Shown here: piece after piece, positions 23,680 to 54,392 of the stretch
Layout of the letters: every line of letters begins with the position of its first letter
Position numbering within the stretch: position 1 is the first letter of the stretch
Origin: Canibacter zhoujuaniae
GTDB taxonomy: Bacteria > Actinomycetota > Actinomycetes > Actinomycetales > Microbacteriaceae
NCBI RefSeq assembly: GCF_011752015.1
Contig: NZ_JAAIKA010000001.1
Coordinates: 620,001 to 684,000 of the forward strand
Direction: 5' to 3'
Length of the DNA stretch: 64,000 nt
Notes under the pieces: generated by a model
Seen by the model: the letters and a program-made list of their open reading frames with translations, nothing else
Database searches by the model: none
Told to the model about the DNA's origin: nothing
Program-made: the position numbers and the translations under genes

Positions 23680-23752
23680 CGCCCCCGAGAGGAATCGAAC
23701 CTCCGACCTACGGTACCGGAAACCGGCGCTCTATCCACTGAGCTACGGGGGC
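23680..23752 (-). tRNA. tRNA-Arg (anticodon CCG)
   Basis: Read on the minus strand, the gene folds as a cloverleaf: acceptor GCCCCCG/CGGGGGC, D-stem GCTC/GAGC, anticodon loop TTCCGGT with anticodon CCG, and T-arm GGAGG-TTCGATT-CCTCT. The first anticodon-stem pair (C27-U43) is a mismatch and one T-stem pair is G-U. The discriminator base is G and the CCA end is not encoded. It reads CGG codons. Confidence 0.95.
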
Positions 23753-39240: not shown

Positions 39241-40287
39241 CTAGCTGTAGCGGCGTCGTGTAGTTGCGTCGTTAACCTCGCCCACCAACTCTTCGATAAC
39301 ATCTTCGAGAAACAGCACGCCGAGTTCTACGCCGGTGGAGTCGTGCACTCTAGCAAGGTGAGTGCCTTTGCTCTGCAGTCTGTGCAGCACATCTTCAAGA
39401 TCCGTATCAGCGTTAACCGTCACCATTTGCCGCCACCTTTTAGCGGGGATCGGCTCAGCAAGACGCTTCTCACTCGTGCGTAAAAGGTCTTTAATGTGCA
39501 CGTAACCAACAAGCTCACTACTGCTGTCAACAATGAGATAGCGTGAGAACCCGTGCTTTGTGACCGCAGCTTCAACATCGAGCGGTGTTGCTTCTTCCGT
39601 TAGCATCACCAACTCATCGCGCGGCACAGCTAGATCTTTCGCCTGTTTATTCGTAAACTCGAAGGCTGCTTTGAGTGCCCCGGAGCGATCTTCGAGCATG
39701 CCCTCGCGGGTTGAATTCGCTACGATACTCTCAACCTCTTCGAGCGTGAATGTCGAGTTAGCCTCAGACTTCGGTTGCACTCGAAACAGGCGCAGCACAC
39801 CGTTCGCAATTGCATTCATAAACCAGATGATTGGCTTCACGGCGCGCGAGAGCGCAACCAGCGGCGGAGCTAACAGCAGCACCGCGCGATCCGGAATCGA
39901 AAACGCCGCATTTTTCGGCATCATTTCACCAAAAACTACGTGCAGGTAGGTCACCAAAAGCAGTGTCAGCACAAATGAAATAATCACCACCATGTCGGCG
40001 CTAAGACCCGTGGCTTTAAGCGGCACCTCCAGCAGATGGTGAATCGCTGGTTCAGATACGTTCAGAATCAAAAGCGAGCAAACGGTTATCCCCAGCTGGC
40101 TGGTGGCGAGCATCAACGTCGCATGCTCCATCGCCCAGAGCGCAGTCTTTGCGGCGCGTGAGCCGTTTTCAGCGTGCGGTTCAATCTGCGAGCGACGTGC
40201 AGAAATAACTGCGAACTCGGCCGCCACAAAAAATGCGTTGCAGGCAAGCAGCACAAACAGCCAGATAATTCCAGCCCAGTCACTCAT
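39241..40287 (-). CDS. CNNM/HlyC-type membrane protein, short form
   Basis: A 348-residue protein with an N-terminal DUF21 (CNNM) membrane domain of four helices (residues 1-190, with FVAAEFAVISARRSQIE and FGEMMPKNAAF) and a tandem CBS-domain region (about 210-335). It lacks the C-terminal CorC/HlyC domain present in its neighbour. CNNM-type proteins move or sense magnesium or other divalent ions. The ATG overlaps the stop of the longer gene by four bases, so the two are coupled and may act together. Confidence 0.85.
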   Translation of the reverse strand: MSDWAGIIWLFVLLACNAFFVAAEFAVISARRSQIEPHAENGSRAAKTALWAMEHATLMLATSQLGITVCSLLILNVSEPAIHHLLEVPLKATGLSADMVVIISFVLTLLLVTYLHVVFGEMMPKNAAFSIPDRAVLLLAPPLVALSRAVKPIIWFMNAIANGVLRLFRVQPKSEANSTFTLEEVESIVANSTREGMLEDRSGALKAAFEFTNKQAKDLAVPRDELVMLTEEATPLDVEAAVTKHGFSRYLIVDSSSELVGYVHIKDLLRTSEKRLAEPIPAKRWRQMVTVNADTDLEDVLHRLQSKGTHLARVHDSTGVELGVLFLEDVIEELVGEVNDATTRRRYS

Positions 40288-41663
40288 CGTTCCACCTCCC
40301 TGTCACGCAGATGCGGCAAAACTATTGTCCCGGTTTCAGTTGACTCACCATTTTCATAGCCCTCAGGCAGCGGCGGCCCCTGATAGCGAATGCGCGCGAT
40401 ACGGCGCCCGTCCATTCGCTCCACGCGCAGTGTTGCGCCATCTGCGAGGGATATTTCATCGCCCGGCACCGGAATCTTTCCAAGCTCTGACAGCATAAAA
40501 CCGGCCACAGTGTCGTATTCACCGCTCTCAGGGATCACAACACCCGATTGCTGCGCGAGTTCGTCTGGCCGCAGTTCACCAGGAATCAAGAGTTTATCGG
40601 CAGATCCGATAATTCCGGTTTGTGCGCGATCGTGTTCGTCGGCAACCTCACCGATCAGTTCTTCAACCAGATCTTCAAGCGTCACAAAGCCAGCTGTGCC
40701 GCCGTATTCATCAACCACAATCGCGCACTGATAGACGGCGTCGCGCAGCTCAGCAAGCAGCAGGTCGAGTGGCATAGTTTCCGGCACGCGCGTCACCTCT
40801 TCAGTGATCGCAGCAACCGGCACCTCACCGCGCTTCTCCCGCGGAATTGCAATTGCCTGCTTAACGTGCGCAACTCCAACAATATCGTCGCGATCCTCAT
40901 CTATGACCGGGAAGCGAGAAAAACCGGTCTTACCCGAGAGCTCAATCAGTTCAGGCACCATCTCAAGACGCTGCACTGATTCCATCTTCAAGCGGGGTGT
41001 CATCGCATCGGCTGCAGCCAGCTCAGAAAGATGCAGGGTGCGGTCGAGCAGAGTTGCGGTGTCAGCCTCTAAAACTCCCGATGCCGCCGAGTGGCGCACC
41101 AAAGAGGCAAGTTCTTCTGCGGATCTCGCGCCAGAGAGTTCTTCCTTCGGATCTATCCCGATGCCGCGCAGCATAGCGTTGGCGCTGCCGTTCAAAACGA
41201 TAATTGCCGGTTTAAAGATCGTTGTAAAAGCTGTTTGGATCGGCACAACAAGTTTTGCTGTTGCCAGAGGCACCGCAAGCGCAAAATTTTTCGGCACTAG
41301 CTCGCCGATAATCATTGACAGCAGCGTTGCAACTGCAACTGCGACCGGAACTGTGATGACCGGCAGCAAATTCTCTGCAACTCCAAGACTAGAAAGCGGT
41401 CGCGACAGCATCTTTGAAAACGCTGGCTCCAGCGTATAGCCGGCAAGCAAAGTAGTTAGAGTAATACCAAGCTGTGCGCTTGATAGGTGGGTTGAGGTGA
41501 TCCGCAAGGCTTTAATAACTGGACCCAGTCGCTTCTCACCGGCCGCTTGCTGGCGTTCCAGCTCATGCCTATCTAAGGCAACTAAAGAGAATTCAGCGGC
41601 AACAAAAACACCGGTGCCAAAAGTTAGCACAATCCCGATTATCAGCAGAAGCCACTCGTTCAC
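40284..41663 (-). CDS. CNNM/HlyC-type membrane protein with CorC domain
   Basis: A 459-residue protein with a DUF21/CNNM membrane domain (FVAAEFSLVALDRHELERQQ; GELVPKNFALAVP), two CBS domains (about 210-340, including IVDEYGGTAGFVTLEDLVEE) and a C-terminal CorC/HlyC domain (about 350-430, VAGFMLSELGKIPVPGDEI). The GTG giving VNEWLLLIIGIVL is chosen because GGAG lies five bases upstream; a longer start is possible but would run through the leader hairpin. A 21-codon leader ORF and a hairpin with U-tract precede it. Probable divalent-ion transport or resistance. Confidence 0.88.
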   Translation of the reverse strand: MNEWLLLIIGIVLTFGTGVFVAAEFSLVALDRHELERQQAAGEKRLGPVIKALRITSTHLSSAQLGITLTTLLAGYTLEPAFSKMLSRPLSSLGVAENLLPVITVPVAVAVATLLSMIIGELVPKNFALAVPLATAKLVVPIQTAFTTIFKPAIIVLNGSANAMLRGIGIDPKEELSGARSAEELASLVRHSAASGVLEADTATLLDRTLHLSELAAADAMTPRLKMESVQRLEMVPELIELSGKTGFSRFPVIDEDRDDIVGVAHVKQAIAIPREKRGEVPVAAITEEVTRVPETMPLDLLLAELRDAVYQCAIVVDEYGGTAGFVTLEDLVEELIGEVADEHDRAQTGIIGSADKLLIPGELRPDELAQQSGVVIPESGEYDTVAGFMLSELGKIPVPGDEISLADGATLRVERMDGRRIARIRYQGPPLPEGYENGESTETGTIVLPHLRDREVER

Positions 41664-41725
41664 AGTAACTCCAAAAAGGCCTCGCCACACTGGCAAGGCT
41701 TACTACTTCGAGGCAATGAATCCAT
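41660..41725 (-). CDS. Possible 21-codon leader peptide
   Basis: A short ATG reading frame encodes MDSLPRSSKPCQCGEAFLEL plus a final Leu, and its TGA stop overlaps the GTG start of the CNNM-type gene (GTGA). It spans the whole hairpin of the leader. No strong ribosome binding site precedes it. The exact end-to-start overlap suggests translational coupling; the Cys-x-Cys could be incidental. Too short to be proven from sequence. Confidence 0.35.
   Translation of the reverse strand: MDSLPRSSKPCQCGEAFLELL
41671..41699 (-). terminator. Leader hairpin with U-tract before CNNM-type gene
   Basis: On the minus strand GCCTTGCC and GGCGAGGC pair over 8 bases (one G-U) with a 5-base loop, followed by CTTTTT and then at once by the GGAG ribosome binding site. 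A copy of GCCTCG a little upstream (41709-41714) can pair instead with CGAGGC in the 3' arm, giving a competing fold. This is the arrangement of an attenuator or a ribosome-site switch, but no known family was recognised. Confidence 0.5.
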
Positions 41726-41890
41726 AACCGTATAACTGTACCTAAATTAGCTGTGAAAATTAACTTTTAGCCACCCACACGACCCTAAATTTTAGGTAGG
41801 CTAGACATACGTGTAGGCAAACTCCACTTGCCGCTTAAACACTCGTGGTAATACCAACGCAGCTATCCCCAGCAGAAAGAGGCAGCTACC
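41700..41890. promoter_or_regulatory. Divergent control region of CNNM-type genes and kgd
   Basis: This AT-rich 191-base region must hold promoters for both directions. On the minus strand TTTCAC and TTATAC, 17 bases apart, could be a promoter ending close to the leader ORF. On the plus strand TTAGGTAGGCTAGACATA (41792-41809) resembles an IdeR/DtxR iron box with one base missing, and may instead be a -10 region. Both readings are tentative. Confidence 0.35.
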
Positions 41891-44800
41891 GTGACTGATT
41901 CAGCATTTGGCGCTAACGCCTGGCTAGTCGAGGAGCTTTATAAGCAGTATCAGACCGATAAAAACTCCGTGGATGAGTCTTGGTGGCCTGTCATGGAGAA
42001 GGTTACGGCAGCTGGCGGTGACATCGATAAGGTGACCGGCACTTCTTCAGCATCGCCGGCTAGCAAGCCGGCAAGCACCCCAAGCCAGGCACAGCCAACA
42101 ACTGCTCCTGCAAACTCCGGCCCAGCAGCAACGACAGGCAGCGCCGCACCTACCGCAAATGCCAGTGTTGCTGCAAAAACTACAAATCAGGCACCACGCA
42201 CCACCCCGATCCCCGCAGACGCTCCAAAAGTAGCTCCCAAGGGCGATGTTGAAGCTGCCGAAGATGTGATCACACCTCTTAAGGGTGTTGCCCGCACCAT
42301 CTCAAAAAACATGGATGCGAGCCTCTCAATTCCGACCGCAACAAGCGTGCGCACTATTCCGGCAAAGCTGATGATCGACAACCGGATCGTGATCAACAAC
42401 CACCTGCGTCGCACGCGCGGTGGCAAGGTGTCTTTCACCCATCTCATCGGGTGGGCACTGATCAAGACTCTGAAACAGTTCCCGAGCCAAAACGTCGCAT
42501 ACACTGAGGTTGACGGCAAGCCGGCGCTCGTCACCCCTGCGCACATTGGTTTGGGGATCGCAATCGACTTGCCAAAACCTGACGGTTCACGCCAGTTGAT
42601 GGTGCCTGCAATTAAGCAGGCAGAGACCCTCAACTTTAATGAGTATCTTGCAGCGTACGAAGATCTCGTTAAGCGCGCCCGTGCGGGCAAGCTCACCGCC
42701 ACAGATTTCCAGGGTGCAACCATTTCTCTCACGAACCCGGGCGGCATTGGCACTGTGCACTCTATCCCGCGGCTAATGAACGGTCAGGGTTGCATTGTGG
42801 GCGCAGGTGCTCTTGAATACCCCGCCCAGTATCAAGGCGCTGCTGCAGAGACTCTTGCCAACCTCGGTGTTTCAAAGACAATCACCCTGACCAGCACCTA
42901 CGACCACCGTGTGATTCAGGGTGCCGGCTCTGGTGAGTTCTTAAAAATTGTGCACGAGCATCTAATTGGCCAGCACGAATTCTATGAAGAAATTTTCGCT
43001 GCTCTTCGCCTCCCATACGCTCCGGTGAAGTGGGCAACCGATATTCATATTGACAGCCACCAGGGCAATGTTGACAAGAACGCGCGTGTGCAGGAGCTGG
43101 TTAACTCCTTCCGTGTGCGCGGGCATCTGATGGCAGACATCGATCCGCTCGAATACCAGCAGCATACGCACCCCGACCTTGAGATTGAGAACCACGGTCT
43201 CACCTTCTGGGATCTCGATCGCGAGTTTGTAGCTGGCGGTATTGGTGGCCGCAATGTTATGAAGCTGCGCGACATCCTTGGCGTAATGCGCGACTCTTAC
43301 TGCCGCAAGATCGGCATCGAGTACATGCACATCCAGGATCCTGAGCAGCGGCTCTGGTTGCGCGATCAGCTCGAGCGCCCGTATGAGAAGCCTGGAAAAG
43401 AAACTCAGATGCGCATTCTCGAAAAATTGAACGAGGCTGAGGCGTTTGAGACATTCCTGCAAACCAAGTACGTGGGGCAAAAACGCTTCAGCTTGGAGGG
43501 CGGTGAGTCGCTGATTCCGCTGCTCGATGCGATGCTCATCGATGCTGCTGAAGACGGCGTTGAGTCGGTTGATATCGGCATGGCTCACCGCGGCCGCTTG
43601 AGCGTGCTCTCAAACATTGCCGGGAAGAGCTACGGCCAGATCTTCCGTGAATTTGAAGGATCACAATCAGAGGCCGGTGCCTCCGGTGACGTGAAGTACC
43701 ATCTCGGCGCTTCCGGTGTATTCACAGCGCCGAACGGCACTCAGGTGCCAATTCACCTGGCCGCAAACCCCTCACATCTTGAGGTTGTGAACGGTGTGCT
43801 CAGCGGTATCGTCCGCGCAAAACAGGATCTAAAACCGATCGGTTCGTTCGCCACTCTGCCGGTTCTTGTGCACGGCGACGCCGCATTCAGCGGTCAGGGA
43901 ATTGTTTACGAAGTACTGCAAATGAGTCAGCTGCGCGGTTACCGCACAGGTGGCACGATTCACATCATCGTAAACAATCAGGTTGGCTTCACAACTCTGC
44001 CAATCGACTCACGCTCTAGTGTCTACTCAACCGATGTTGGCAAGACAGTACAGACACCGATTTTCCACGTTAACGGCGATGATCCTGAGTCGGTTGTGCG
44101 CGTTGCTGAGTTAGCGTTTAGGTTCCGGCAGAAGTTCCACAAAGACGTCATCATCGACCTGGTCTGCTACCGCCGTCGCGGTCACAATGAGGGTGACGAT
44201 CCGTCGATGACCCAGCCTATGATGACCTCACTAATAGAGGCGAAACGCTCAACTCGAAAGCTCTACACGGAAGCACTTGTTGGCCGCGGTGATATCACCG
44301 AAGAGCAGTACGAGCAGGCAAAGCTAAGCTTCAGAAAGAAGCTCGAGCAGGCTTTTGACGAGACACATGTTGCGCAGACCGGTGTTATCAACACTGAGCT
44401 GGAGAAGGCCAAAGAGGTCCCATCTCTTGCCGATGCTGACCCGGTTGACACCGCTGTATCGACCGAAGTTATAGAGAAAATCGGTGACGCGCACCTGAAC
44501 AAACCAGACGGTTTCACTGTGCATCCGAAGCTTGAACAGCTGATTCAGAAGCGTGCAAAGATGAGCCGTGATGGTGGCATTGACTGGGGCTTTGGCGAGA
44601 TCCTCGCTCTTGGCTCTCTGCTGCTTGAGGGCACCCCGGTACGCTTCGCAGGTCAGGATGCACGGCGCGGCACATTTGCGCAGCGGCACGCCGCATTCCA
44701 CGACTACAAGAACGGCCAAGAGTGGCTGCCTCTGCTGAACCTGTCTGAAGATCAGGCTCGTTTCTGGATTTACGACTCACTGCTGTCAGAGTATGCAGCG

Positions 44801-45598
44801 CTAGCTTACGAGTACGGCTACTCACTGCAGCGTGAAGACGCACTCGTAATCTGGGAAGCACAGTTTGGTGATTTTGCTAACGGTGCGCAGACGGTGGTTG
44901 ACGAGTTTATCTCATCCGCTGAACAAAAATGGGGTCAGAGTTCTTCAGTTGTTATGCTCTTACCGCACGGCTATGAGGGTCAGGGGCCAGACCATTCTTC
45001 AGCACGTATCGAACGTTACCTGCAAATGTGTGCGCAGGAGAACATGATCGTTGCGCGGCCTTCAACCCCGGCAAACCACTTCCACCTGCTGCGTCGCCAG
45101 GCATATCAGCGGCCGCGCAAACCGCTCATTGTCTTCAGCCCGAAGTCAATGCTGCGCCTGCGCGGTGCGACAAGCGGTGTCGCCGAATTCACACAGGGTC
45201 GCTTCCGTCCGGTGATTGGCGATAACACTGCCGATGCAACCAAGGTAAAGCGTGTGCTGCTCACCGCCGGCAAGGTCTACTACGATCTGAAAAACGAGAT
45301 TGCAAAACAGGGCGAAGATCGCATCGCTATCGTGCGGCTGGAGCAGTTCTACCCGCTCCCTGAAACGGAGCTGCTCTCTGCGCTTGAGCGCTACCGCGGC
45401 GCCGAGTTCGTTTGGGTTCAGGATGAGCCTGAGAATCAGGGGGCTTGGCCGTTCTTGCAGAACAAGTTCCGCCAGATTCCGACGCTCGCCGAAACCCGTG
45501 TTGTATCTCGCCCGGAGGCGGCATCGCCGTCCACAGGTAGCGCGAAAGTGCACGCAGTTGAGCAGGAGCAACTGATAGCTGCGGCAACTTCACTGTAA
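41891..45598 (+). CDS. kgd: Multifunctional 2-oxoglutarate decarboxylase/dehydrogenase E1 with E2-like domain
   Basis: Actinobacterial Kgd/OdhA: thiamine-diphosphate E1 for 2-oxoglutarate fused behind an E2-type acyltransferase core without a lipoyl domain. The 1235-residue protein starts FGANAWLVEELYKQYQ (small N-terminal segment), then a Thr/Pro/Ala-rich linker (about 45-115), the acyltransferase domain (125-360; YDHRVIQGAGSGEFLK near 337), and E1 from about 390 (VDIGMAHRGRLSVLSNIAGK; RRRGHNEGDDPSMTQPMM near 760 for cofactor binding). Start GTG. Depending on partners it feeds the succinyl-CoA route (SucCD) or releases succinate semialdehyde. Confidence 0.95.
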   Translation: MTDSAFGANAWLVEELYKQYQTDKNSVDESWWPVMEKVTAAGGDIDKVTGTSSASPASKPASTPSQAQPTTAPANSGPAATTGSAAPTANASVAAKTTNQAPRTTPIPADAPKVAPKGDVEAAEDVITPLKGVARTISKNMDASLSIPTATSVRTIPAKLMIDNRIVINNHLRRTRGGKVSFTHLIGWALIKTLKQFPSQNVAYTEVDGKPALVTPAHIGLGIAIDLPKPDGSRQLMVPAIKQAETLNFNEYLAAYEDLVKRARAGKLTATDFQGATISLTNPGGIGTVHSIPRLMNGQGCIVGAGALEYPAQYQGAAAETLANLGVSKTITLTSTYDHRVIQGAGSGEFLKIVHEHLIGQHEFYEEIFAALRLPYAPVKWATDIHIDSHQGNVDKNARVQELVNSFRVRGHLMADIDPLEYQQHTHPDLEIENHGLTFWDLDREFVAGGIGGRNVMKLRDILGVMRDSYCRKIGIEYMHIQDPEQRLWLRDQLERPYEKPGKETQMRILEKLNEAEAFETFLQTKYVGQKRFSLEGGESLIPLLDAMLIDAAEDGVESVDIGMAHRGRLSVLSNIAGKSYGQIFREFEGSQSEAGASGDVKYHLGASGVFTAPNGTQVPIHLAANPSHLEVVNGVLSGIVRAKQDLKPIGSFATLPVLVHGDAAFSGQGIVYEVLQMSQLRGYRTGGTIHIIVNNQVGFTTLPIDSRSSVYSTDVGKTVQTPIFHVNGDDPESVVRVAELAFRFRQKFHKDVIIDLVCYRRRGHNEGDDPSMTQPMMTSLIEAKRSTRKLYTEALVGRGDITEEQYEQAKLSFRKKLEQAFDETHVAQTGVINTELEKAKEVPSLADADPVDTAVSTEVIEKIGDAHLNKPDGFTVHPKLEQLIQKRAKMSRDGGIDWGFGEILALGSLLLEGTPVRFAGQDARRGTFAQRHAAFHDYKNGQEWLPLLNLSEDQARFWIYDSLLSEYAALAYEYGYSLQREDALVIWEAQFGDFANGAQTVVDEFISSAEQKWGQSSSVVMLLPHGYEGQGPDHSSARIERYLQMCAQENMIVARPSTPANHFHLLRRQAYQRPRKPLIVFSPKSMLRLRGATSGVAEFTQGRFRPVIGDNTADATKVKRVLLTAGKVYYDLKNEIAKQGEDRIAIVRLEQFYPLPETELLSALERYRGAEFVWVQDEPENQGAWPFLQNKFRQIPTLAETRVVSRPEAASPSTGSAKVHAVEQEQLIAAATSL

Positions 45599-53110: not shown

Positions 53111-54193
53111 CTACTCGCTGAAGTTGTTCAGCCAGTCACGCACCCACGTTTCAATTTCTTTGCCAACGCGTTCTGCAGGCACATTCCAGCGAGTAGTTGG
53201 ACGCGGTGCAAACTTTGCCCACTCTTCTGGCAGCTCGACAGAATCATCAACCGGGTACATGTACATGGTGTCTGGAATGGTTGCCTGGAATTCACCGCTC
53301 ACCATGTAGTCAATCACGGCTTTCGCACCCGCTTCGTTAGATGCGCCGGCAAGCACACCTGCATACTCCACAACATCGGTGCATGTTTCGAGCAGCGCTT
53401 TGGTGCTAGATTCTGTGCCCTCATCGTTTACGGTCCAAGCTGGGCTTGACGCGTATGACAGCACGATTGGGAATGTGCCGTTTTCGCCGCCCTGAGTGAA
53501 CTGACCGTTATAAGCTGCTGACCAGCCCTGTTCAAGGCGCGCACCGTTGTCTAGCAGCTGCTTCCAGTAATCGAGGTAGCCTTCTTCACCAAATTTAGCA
53601 ACCGTTCCAGCTAGCAGTGCGCGGCCCGTATCAGAAGCGCTCGGATCGATGATAGCGGTGAGTCCTTTGTAGGTCTCTGCTGTTAGGTCTTCAAATGTTT
53701 TCGGCTCAGGAATACCCTTTTCCACAAACCAAGCCGGATCTATGTTGAAACACACCGAACCCTCATCGATAGGGGTTATGCTGTCAGCTTTATCAAACGC
53801 GAAATTAGCGGCGTTTGCTGACTGCTTCGCAGGCTTGTACGGCGCAACTGCGCCCTCTTCCACCAGTTTCGCCGCACGCAGGTTGGTCACGCCAAAGAAT
53901 GCGTCAGCGATTGGGGCGTCTTTAGTCAAAACAAGCTTGTTCGCCAGCTCAGAGCCATCACCAGTTTCAACAACCTTCACATCATAACCGGTGGCTTTGC
54001 TCGCAGCGGCAGCAAATTCGTCACCGGGAAAGCTGTCGTGCACGGCTATTGTCACGGTTTTAGCCGCATCGCTGCTACTAGAGTCATCTTGAGAAGCGGT
54101 GTTGCCCGCGTTGCCCTGCGCGCAGCCGGCCAAAAGAACGGTTGCTCCCAAAACAGCAAGAATTGCGGTTCGATTGCGATATACGTATGCCAA
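53111..54193 (-). CDS. thiB: Thiamine-binding lipoprotein of ABC transporter
   Basis: Extracytoplasmic binding protein, 360 residues. The TTG start gives a signal peptide with lipobox VLLAGCAQGN (Cys near residue 24), followed by a Ser/Asp-rich linker and the mature domain beginning VTIAVHDSFPGDEFAAAA. ThiB-like features are FFGVTNLRAAKLVEEG, DEGSVCFNIDPAWF, DPSASDTGRALLAGTVAKFG and the Trp-rich YWKQLLDNGARLEQGWSAAY. Start and ribosome binding site (AAGGAAT) are formed by the end of the TPP riboswitch. Confidence 0.9.
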   Translation of the reverse strand: MAYVYRNRTAILAVLGATVLLAGCAQGNAGNTASQDDSSSSDAAKTVTIAVHDSFPGDEFAAAASKATGYDVKVVETGDGSELANKLVLTKDAPIADAFFGVTNLRAAKLVEEGAVAPYKPAKQSANAANFAFDKADSITPIDEGSVCFNIDPAWFVEKGIPEPKTFEDLTAETYKGLTAIIDPSASDTGRALLAGTVAKFGEEGYLDYWKQLLDNGARLEQGWSAAYNGQFTQGGENGTFPIVLSYASSPAWTVNDEGTESSTKALLETCTDVVEYAGVLAGASNEAGAKAVIDYMVSGEFQATIPDTMYMYPVDDSVELPEEWAKFAPRPTTRWNVPAERVGKEIETWVRDWLNNFSE

Positions 54194-54202
54194 AATATTC
54201 CT

Positions 54203-54291
54203 TCCTACGCTGGCATTACCCAGATCAGGTTTAACGGTCAGAGCAATAGGCGCTCTCTCTCAGCCCTCCAGTTAAGGCTCCCGTGCTGCTT
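54203..54291 (-). ncRNA. TPP riboswitch (Thi-box)
   Basis: Read on the minus strand, the conserved blocks appear in order: CACGGGAGCC, then GGAGGGCTGAGAGAGAGC with the CTGAGA core, a variable stem, GACCGTTAAACCTGATCTGG, and TAATGCCAGCGTAGGAAGG. The last block runs into the ribosome binding site of the TTG start 11 bases on, so ligand binding would hide the site and block translation. There is no U-tract, which argues against a transcription terminator type. Confidence 0.95.
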
Positions 54292-54293
54292 CA

Positions 54294-54392
54294 AGTTGAA
54301 GCACTACAAAGTTAACACACTTCCCATGCTTGTATGCGCACTGAGCTGATCCATTCTCAGACAGTGTGCAAAAATTATCGGATCCTTAATTA
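54294..54392 (-). promoter_or_regulatory. Region upstream of TPP riboswitch
   Basis: This stretch between the DUF6350 terminator and the riboswitch should hold the thiBPQ promoter. It contains an imperfect hairpin built from CACTG/CAGTG and CTGAG/CTCAG. No promoter pair is clear enough to assign by eye. Confidence 0.3.

Follow-up and report, generated by a model that had tools for sequence, protein, structure and literature searches.

Upstream of a CNNM-type membrane protein gene on the minus strand of the 1.47-Mb Canibacter zhoujuaniae genome (G000) lies a 21-codon reading frame that runs into the start of the gene, and the question raised by this locus is whether the small frame is a regulatory leader and, if so, what it would respond to. 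The locus lies in a 64,000-nucleotide stretch of the genome (the window), where a first-pass annotation had proposed that the frame, a hairpin followed by CTTTTT and GGAG, and a competing upstream GCCTCG form an attenuator-like leader before a divalent-ion gene. Each of these elements is present, on the minus strand, and the protein domains are confirmed as CNNM, CBS and CorC_HlyC (Table 1), which point to a role in Mg2+. As the upstream neighbour is on the other strand, the leader is transcribed first, from its own promoter. The reading that we favour, with a probability of about 0.42, is that the window holds a motif-decayed member of a conserved actinobacterial leader that would drive CNNM-type Mg2+-homeostasis genes, with control through a [DE]PP motif and Mg2+ in its relatives.

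Table 1. Features at and around the leader of the CNNM gene, in window coordinates.
Feature	Position	Strand	Basis or remark
Leader ORF, 21 codons, MDSLPRSSKPCQCGEAFLELL	41660..41725	-	ATG 41725-41723; TGA stop 41662-41660 overlaps CNNM start
Overlap of leader TGA with CNNM GTG start (GTGA)	GTG 41663-41661	-	
-10 box TACAGT	41735..41740	-	15 nt before leader ATG
GCCTCG, proposed competitor for hairpin 3' arm	41709..41714	-	sequence
CTCGAAG	41706..41712	-	resembles Leucobacter leader block TCTCGAAGACC
Hairpin GCCTTGCCA-GTG-TGGCGAGGC, 9 bp	41679..41699	-	sequence, comparison
CTTTTT directly 3' of hairpin	41673..41678	-	sequence
GGAG, Shine-Dalgarno site of CNNM gene	41669..41672	-	sequence
CNNM-CBS-CorC_HlyC membrane protein, 459 aa, GTG start	40284..41663	-	domains confirmed
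Second CNNM-CBS protein, 348 aa	39241..40287	-	ATG overlaps first gene's stop by 4 nt
Gene with 2-oxoglutarate dehydrogenase-type domains	41891-45598	opposite to leader	upstream neighbour
TPP riboswitch	54185-54294	-	Rfam gathering score
tRNA	23680-23752	-	Rfam

We compared 133 CNNM loci, of which 112 belong to the taxonomic family of the window's genome (Microbacteriaceae, judging by the names of the hits) and 21 to further families within its order. The same gene is found in the sister genus Leucobacter (68-69%), Planctomonas, Compostimonas, Microbacterium, Leifsonia, Agromyces, Frigoribacterium and Galbitalea and, more distantly, in Arthrobacter. An ORF that contains [DE]PP and closes between -12 and +16 of the CNNM start is present at 97 of the 112 family loci and at 3 of the 21 others, and an ORF closing in the same interval whose start codon lies 14-17 nt downstream of a TANNNT box at 106 and 8, respectively. 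The peptide starts with MDDPP at 81 family loci, or 82 counting L019, which our script wrongly gave a 495-codon ORF, so that it is absent both from the 81 and from the set of 83 MDDPP leaders analysed below. A leader of the MD type is missing at seven family loci: L003 (MSSEPPS), L036 and L037 (MRRSSNSDDPPSS) and L130 (MEPPS) have [DE]PP in another form, no leader was found at L018 and L028, and the seventh is L004. Of the five genomes in the window's genus, four (G000-G003) close the leader at +4, with TANNNT 15-17 nt before the ATG; in the fifth (G004, locus L004) only a doubtful six-codon frame, MCEESQ, closes there. The first-pass annotation had named conservation of the small ORF as a check on its proposal, and by these counts the ORF is conserved.

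The position of the stop codon was examined across the 111 scored loci, where it ends at +8 in 66, +4 in 23, +1 in 9 and +13 in 3. Every +8 stop is a TGA formed with the second codon of the CNNM gene, which ends in T; in CNNM genes 7.2% of codons have T as their third base. Among the 83 MDDPP leaders, the first stop at +1 to +13 lies in the leader frame in 77 cases, versus 2 and 0 in the other frames, and stops earlier than this number 5 in the leader frame versus 61 and 61 in the others. When the leader bodies were shuffled by mononucleotide, 57.5 of the 83 stops still fell at +1 to +13, because the C-rich body is poor in stops and the overlapping stop was held fixed; the stop position by itself therefore counts for less than the comparison of frames. 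Of 52 leaders in Leucobacter, 51 end at +4, with starts at nine different offsets that share a single phase (among these loci L209 and L210 share their leaders with L031 and L304, and L299 and L300 were not parsed in the leader table). The exception, L323, has a C run of different length from its near relative L333, and its genome is 89% complete. The upstream stop thus sits on the downstream start, on the same strand and in the relatives as well, which is the arrangement of a coupled pair. By comparison with relatives, the ORF and its overlap are beyond chance, and leader, frame and overlap are conserved.

The leader is also closely tied to one kind of gene. Exact ATGGAYGAYCCYCC occurs at 25 sites in 59 genomes, 22 of them directly before CNNM genes; one of the 22 (L135) precedes a CNNM paralogue of 35% identity in a genome from another family of the order (f14). 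The 75 sites fetched from all the pattern scans together, which exclude nine listed sites that were never fetched, divide into 41 that precede a CNNM gene and 34 that do not, the latter including all sites outside the order; matches in other orders of the class, none of them before a CNNM gene, were set aside as background. The Leucobacter pattern CCGAGTANNNNCCGCGNNNNNNCGCGG is present once in 49 of 54 genomes, is missing from the other 5 and never occurs twice, the reversed pattern used as a control has 0 sites, and all 30 of the sites fetched lie 20-53 nt before a CNNM gene. On these counts the element is conserved and almost specific to CNNM genes.

Leaders of a possibly related kind are found at two further sets of loci. 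At L135 and L159-L162, an MDDPPHR leader precedes a different CNNM paralogue, its stop overlapping the start by about 1 nt and with no TANNNT at the usual distance, and it may have arisen independently or have been acquired by transfer. At L096, L112 and L230, which are from other families, the ORFs that close at +4 are rich in Asp/Glu and Pro and differ in sequence (PDDPDDEP, ETDPPDEP and DAEPPSP repeats are examples from this set), hinting that the same property can be provided by different peptides.

In the 83 MDDPP leaders, TANNNT starts at -16 (46 leaders) or -15 (32 leaders) from the ATG in 78; counting starts at -18 to -16 only, there are 47 versus 1.6 expected, with a maximum of 6 in 500 shuffles. 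A Shine-Dalgarno-like word is found before the leader ATG in just 8 of the 83. The other genomes of the window's genus have their boxes at -15 to -17 (TAGAGT in G001, TAGAAT in G002, TAGGAT in G003), and the TACAGT box of the window predicts a transcript start at the ATG or a few nucleotides away. A -10 box at a fixed short distance together with the lack of a Shine-Dalgarno site is the signature of a predicted leaderless start, and as the box lies 14-17 nt before the leader start at nearly all family loci, the transcript is probably leaderless. Translation of the leader, its leaderless start and its coupling to the CNNM gene are, taken jointly, highly probable from these comparisons.

Whether the leader does anything beyond coupling is a separate matter. 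It is conceivable, if rather unlikely, that it merely couples translation, as the entry point for a leaderless transcript, with MDDPP and its codons serving initiation and not sensing. This would agree with overlap and frame being the most constant features, with leader bodies that range from 11 to 63 codons (the false 495-codon entry for L019 aside), with a layout that stays in the window's genus though the motif is mostly lost, and with T- or C-ending Pro codons that leave the 5' end unpaired. However, [DE]PP persists with either Asp or Glu, and in Leucobacter it does so deep inside the leader, well away from the start codon; one leader there (L318) has EAAEPPS-like units twice, and leaderless genes in general would not show the motif almost solely before CNNM genes.

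In most relatives the leader has DDPP[SP] at codons 2-6 or a [DE]PPS further inside, written largely with rare codons that end in T. Across the 83 MDDPP leaders Pro4 is encoded by CCT in 51, CCC in 30 and CCG in 2, Pro5 by CCT in 46, CCG in 19, CCC in 16 and CCA in 2, and codon 6 is TCT in 39, CCT in 20 and TCA in 13; for comparison, in the CNNM genes CCT accounts for 19 of 667 Pro codons and TCT for 21 of 848 Ser codons. Swapping the Pro codons in silico gave 5'-end accessibilities of 0.584 for the native codons, 0.474 for CCG, 0.639 for CCC and 0.566 for CCA, and avoidance of structure therefore explains the scarcity of CCG, not the preference for CCT over CCA. In Leucobacter the motif is internal, mostly as SDPPS, ADPPS or (A/S)EPPS, and of the 52 leaders matched (Leucobacter, L032 and G003), 43 have GAC as the acidic codon before PPS and 9 have GAG. 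The motif unit is doubled in the L318 leader, as RPAEAAEPPSASEAAEPPSPSR. The rare codons CGA-AGA precede the motif in 43 of 51 Leucobacter leaders, AGA making up 1.1% of Arg codons there.

The window itself lacks the motif: its leader begins MDSLPRSS, without [DE]PP, as do those of G001 and G002, and G003 keeps EPPS. The leaders of other small-genome genera (L084, L086 and L087) are also without it, so that [DE]PP is gone from the leaders of small-genome members of the family, the window's genus among them. Loss of EF-P as the cause was rejected, since EF-P is present in the genome of the window and in 15 of the 16 genomes checked, the sole miss being a genome that is 91% complete. MgtE was found in 6 of the 16 and in none of the window's genus, with no clear link to the motif.

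Another explanation is that the leader carries a stall site read by elongation capacity (EF-P, charged or modified tRNA-Pro, and the rare CCT, TCT and CGA-AGA codons) and not by Mg2+, with uncoupling leading to termination by Rho or at the hairpin. Asp-Pro-Pro is among the diprolyl stall contexts in the results described in PMC4176338, and loss of EF-P is described as causing Rho-dependent and intrinsic termination behind stalled ribosomes (PMC5021804, in the part concerned). EF-P is nearly universal in the genomes checked and the leaders are C-rich, at 0.40 C and 0.27 G with C exceeding G in 81 of 83, both of which would be compatible with such a site, but most leaders have DDPPS and not PPP. 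We regard this explanation as possible but rather doubtful.

The nucleotides of the first codons could also act directly, as an anti-Shine-Dalgarno arm (GACCCTCC) that hides the ribosome site of the CNNM gene as long as the leader is not being translated. CCTCC could base-pair with GGAGG, and the pairing is predicted in some leaders, for instance in L024. Across 106 loci, however, pairing between the site and the first 20 nt is below that of shuffles (0.079 vs 0.138, p 9e-9) and the accessibility of the site equals that of shuffles (0.176 vs 0.169, p 0.50), and these values contradict such pairing of the DDPP codons as a general rule; this mechanism is thus very improbable.

Some of the constraint is nevertheless at the nucleotide level. 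In Leucobacter, nucleotides are conserved beyond what the peptide needs (CGA-AGA, AGT and CCGCG/CGCGG), which a pure peptide sensor would not require, and CTCGAAG in the window is an apparent remnant of the conserved Leucobacter block TCTCGAAGACC. CATAGAC is over-represented in the bodies of MDDPP leaders (17 loci vs 0.5 expected after codon shuffling, e.g. L020-L022, L049, L050 and L128), and several copies can, by eye, pair with the CNNM ribosome site or start. The conserved nucleotides might be DNA sites of a regulator downstream of the promoter, as the conservation of TCTCGAAGACC, CCGAGTA and a palindrome, the 18-bp palindrome formed by the Leucobacter hairpin, and the excess of CATAGAC would allow; yet the conserved blocks differ from group to group, and the frame is kept through changes in length, as the Leucobacter leaders with their nine start offsets illustrate, which makes a regulator site distinctly improbable.

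The hairpin was central to the first-pass annotation. In the window it folds with a z of -1.78, 10 of 200 dinucleotide shuffles being as good (-1.70 and 14 of 200 on repeat), and by folding energy alone it is ordinary; 8 terminator-like sites were found in the 4-kb region versus 4.5 expected. Its stem has 9 pairs, 6 of them G-C, a loop of 3 and five T in the next eight nucleotides. G001 has a hairpin, GCCTTACGC-AGG-GCGTGAGGC, at the same place, and between the two stems three of nine pairs are changed on both sides and none is broken, an outcome expected by chance about once in eleven on a rough count (4/9 per pair) and therefore only supportive. The leaders of G002, G003 and G004 contain no such hairpin. 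In Leucobacter, GCCGCGC-NNNN-GCGCGGC is found at the same place as the hairpin of the window. The alignment covers 45 of 53 leaders, leaving out L305, L315, L318, L329, L032 and three of the window's genus, long or irregular ones among them. In these 45 the five inner pairs CCGCG/CGCGG are invariant, the loop-closing pair is C-G in 40, A-U, G-C and U-A in 1 each and unpaired in 2, and the weak outermost pair is unpaired in 13. The covariation score is 0.053 versus 0.017 in shuffles (0 of 500 as high), whereas the count of pairs changed on both sides, 2, was equalled in 39 of 500. RNAalifold returned the CCGCGC/GCGCGG hairpin only, and a second helix proposed by eye (TCTCG with CGAG) was rejected, as alignment columns 14 and 15 vary without compensation.

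These comparisons weigh on the proposal that translation of the window leader prevents termination at the hairpin and its T-run, with GCCTCG as the alternative partner of the 3' arm. The strong stem followed by T residues and the conserved place of the hairpin in G001 and Leucobacter would suit it, but the T-run has no counterpart in G001 or Leucobacter, so that the window alone is terminator-like among its close relatives, GCCTCG is absent from G001, and the folding z is only -1.7. A terminator-like hairpin with a T-run was detected in just 3 of the 111 leaders scanned, the window among them, which is not the pattern of an attenuator family, and we consider attenuation of this type improbable. 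The annotation was therefore right in outline, with a leader ORF before a Mg2+ gene and a hairpin whose place is shared and whose closing pair covaries in Leucobacter, and partly supported on that account; a terminator as the general mechanism and a common competitor fell away, being wrong or unproven in detail. It missed the [DE]PP[SP] motif and the leaderless start, probably since the copy in the window is degenerate.

The mechanism that we propose for the [DE]PP-containing leaders runs as follows. Transcription would begin at or next to the leader ATG, as inferred from the fixed -10 box, and a ribosome would start on the leader without a Shine-Dalgarno site, read the C-rich body, often with a hairpin, and terminate on the CNNM start codon. 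The terminating ribosome or its subunits would then start the exporter, and another 4-nt overlap would lead on to the second CNNM gene. DDPP[SP] or [DE]PPS would be an early destabilisation or stall site of the kind seen in MgtL (EPDP): at low Mg2+, or when elongation is impaired, the ribosome would pause or drop off, leave the leader unfinished and yield less exporter, and with plentiful Mg2+ the leader would be read through and the exporter made. Given positive coupling and abortion at low Mg2+, CNNM output would therefore rise with Mg2+, suiting an exporter, with a sign opposite to that of MgtL. We judge a destabilisation or stall role of [DE]PP to have an even chance of being correct, and Mg2+ as the signal to be a more tentative suggestion. 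In the window itself coupling is what we claim, perhaps with hairpin-based attenuation; as this copy lacks the motif, sensing there is doubtful.

Published work provides precedents for the separate steps. The EPDP that follows Met in MgtL makes the ribosome unstable at low Mg2+, in work that also deals with EttA (PMC11282234, in the passages on this leader), ribosome destabilisation is counteracted by high Mg2+ (PMC9718836, in part), and EF-P relieves the stalling that occurs at Pro-Pro preceded by Asp (the relevant part of PMC4176338). One observation in PMC11282234, as its relevant passages state it, counts against our explanation, namely that early acidic repeats do not always lead to EttA-dependent translation. 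The MgtL leader of mgtA in E. coli and Salmonella resembles the MDDPP leaders of the relatives, though not the window copy, in being short, with acidic residues and Pro after Met, before a Mg2+-transport gene (PMC11282234, same passages). MgtL acts by Rho-dependent termination and has its importer on at low Mg2+, whereas the leader described here probably lacks a 5' untranslated region and has its stop at the start codon of a gene of exporter type; it would work through coupling, and its sign would be the opposite. The gene 3' of our leader is Mg2+-related, as for leaders of the MgtL type, judging by its domains and by the portion of PMC6711546 in which S. aureus is said to need MpfA, a CNNM relative, for Mg2+ export.

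YoaL, the leader of mgpA/yoaE in Salmonella and E. coli, comes close in layout, since its ORF overlaps a CorC-domain gene and its translation raises that of the gene. Salmonella corC and mgpA are induced by high Mg2+, and the mgpA-overlapping YoaL leader is proposed to be responsible, a proposal only (PMC12421838, in the sections on these genes). It occurs in other bacteria, those sections report no leaderless start or DDPP, and we liken the two by description and not by sequence. MgtQ of Salmonella mgtC-mgtB is likewise a tiny ORF, with acidic residues 2 and 5, in which abortion of translation sets a Mg2+ transporter gene; it differs in having 8 codons, no overlap and alternative stem-loops, with less mgtQ translation giving more mgtB (PMC8092293, as its relevant part describes). 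Leaderless small ORFs and uORFs are described in mycobacteria, and leaderless transcripts and small ORFs are common in Actinobacteria (PMC4633059, in the part on these transcripts); among the matches listed, none showed a CNNM-linked MDDPP leader. Nor was this leader described in the open-licence literature searched, preprints excluded, where nothing linked Rv1842c with leaderless transcripts and the matches to MDDPP were unrelated. Rfam gave no match at the locus, and a scan of 17 loci that admitted E-values up to 0.5 was negative as well. As far as open-licence papers show, the element is undescribed, in agreement with the first-pass annotation.

In its broadest form, our proposal is a widespread actinobacterial Mg2+ rheostat, in which a leaderless [DE]PP sensor of ribosome stability would be coupled to a CNNM exporter as a positive-sign counterpart of MgtL, with some lineages, the window's genus for one, dropping the sensor and keeping or remodelling the hairpin; as a whole this is a possibility that we hold with some doubt. 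Little is known of how bacteria export Mg2+, and less still of how this is controlled; a leader that accompanies a single kind of gene throughout a family would offer a directly testable sensor. If the proposal is right, ribosome-destabilising leaders would extend from enterobacterial importers to actinobacterial exporters, and leaderless initiation would be seen in regulatory use. The locus also illustrates that a degenerate copy can lead to a well-conserved element.
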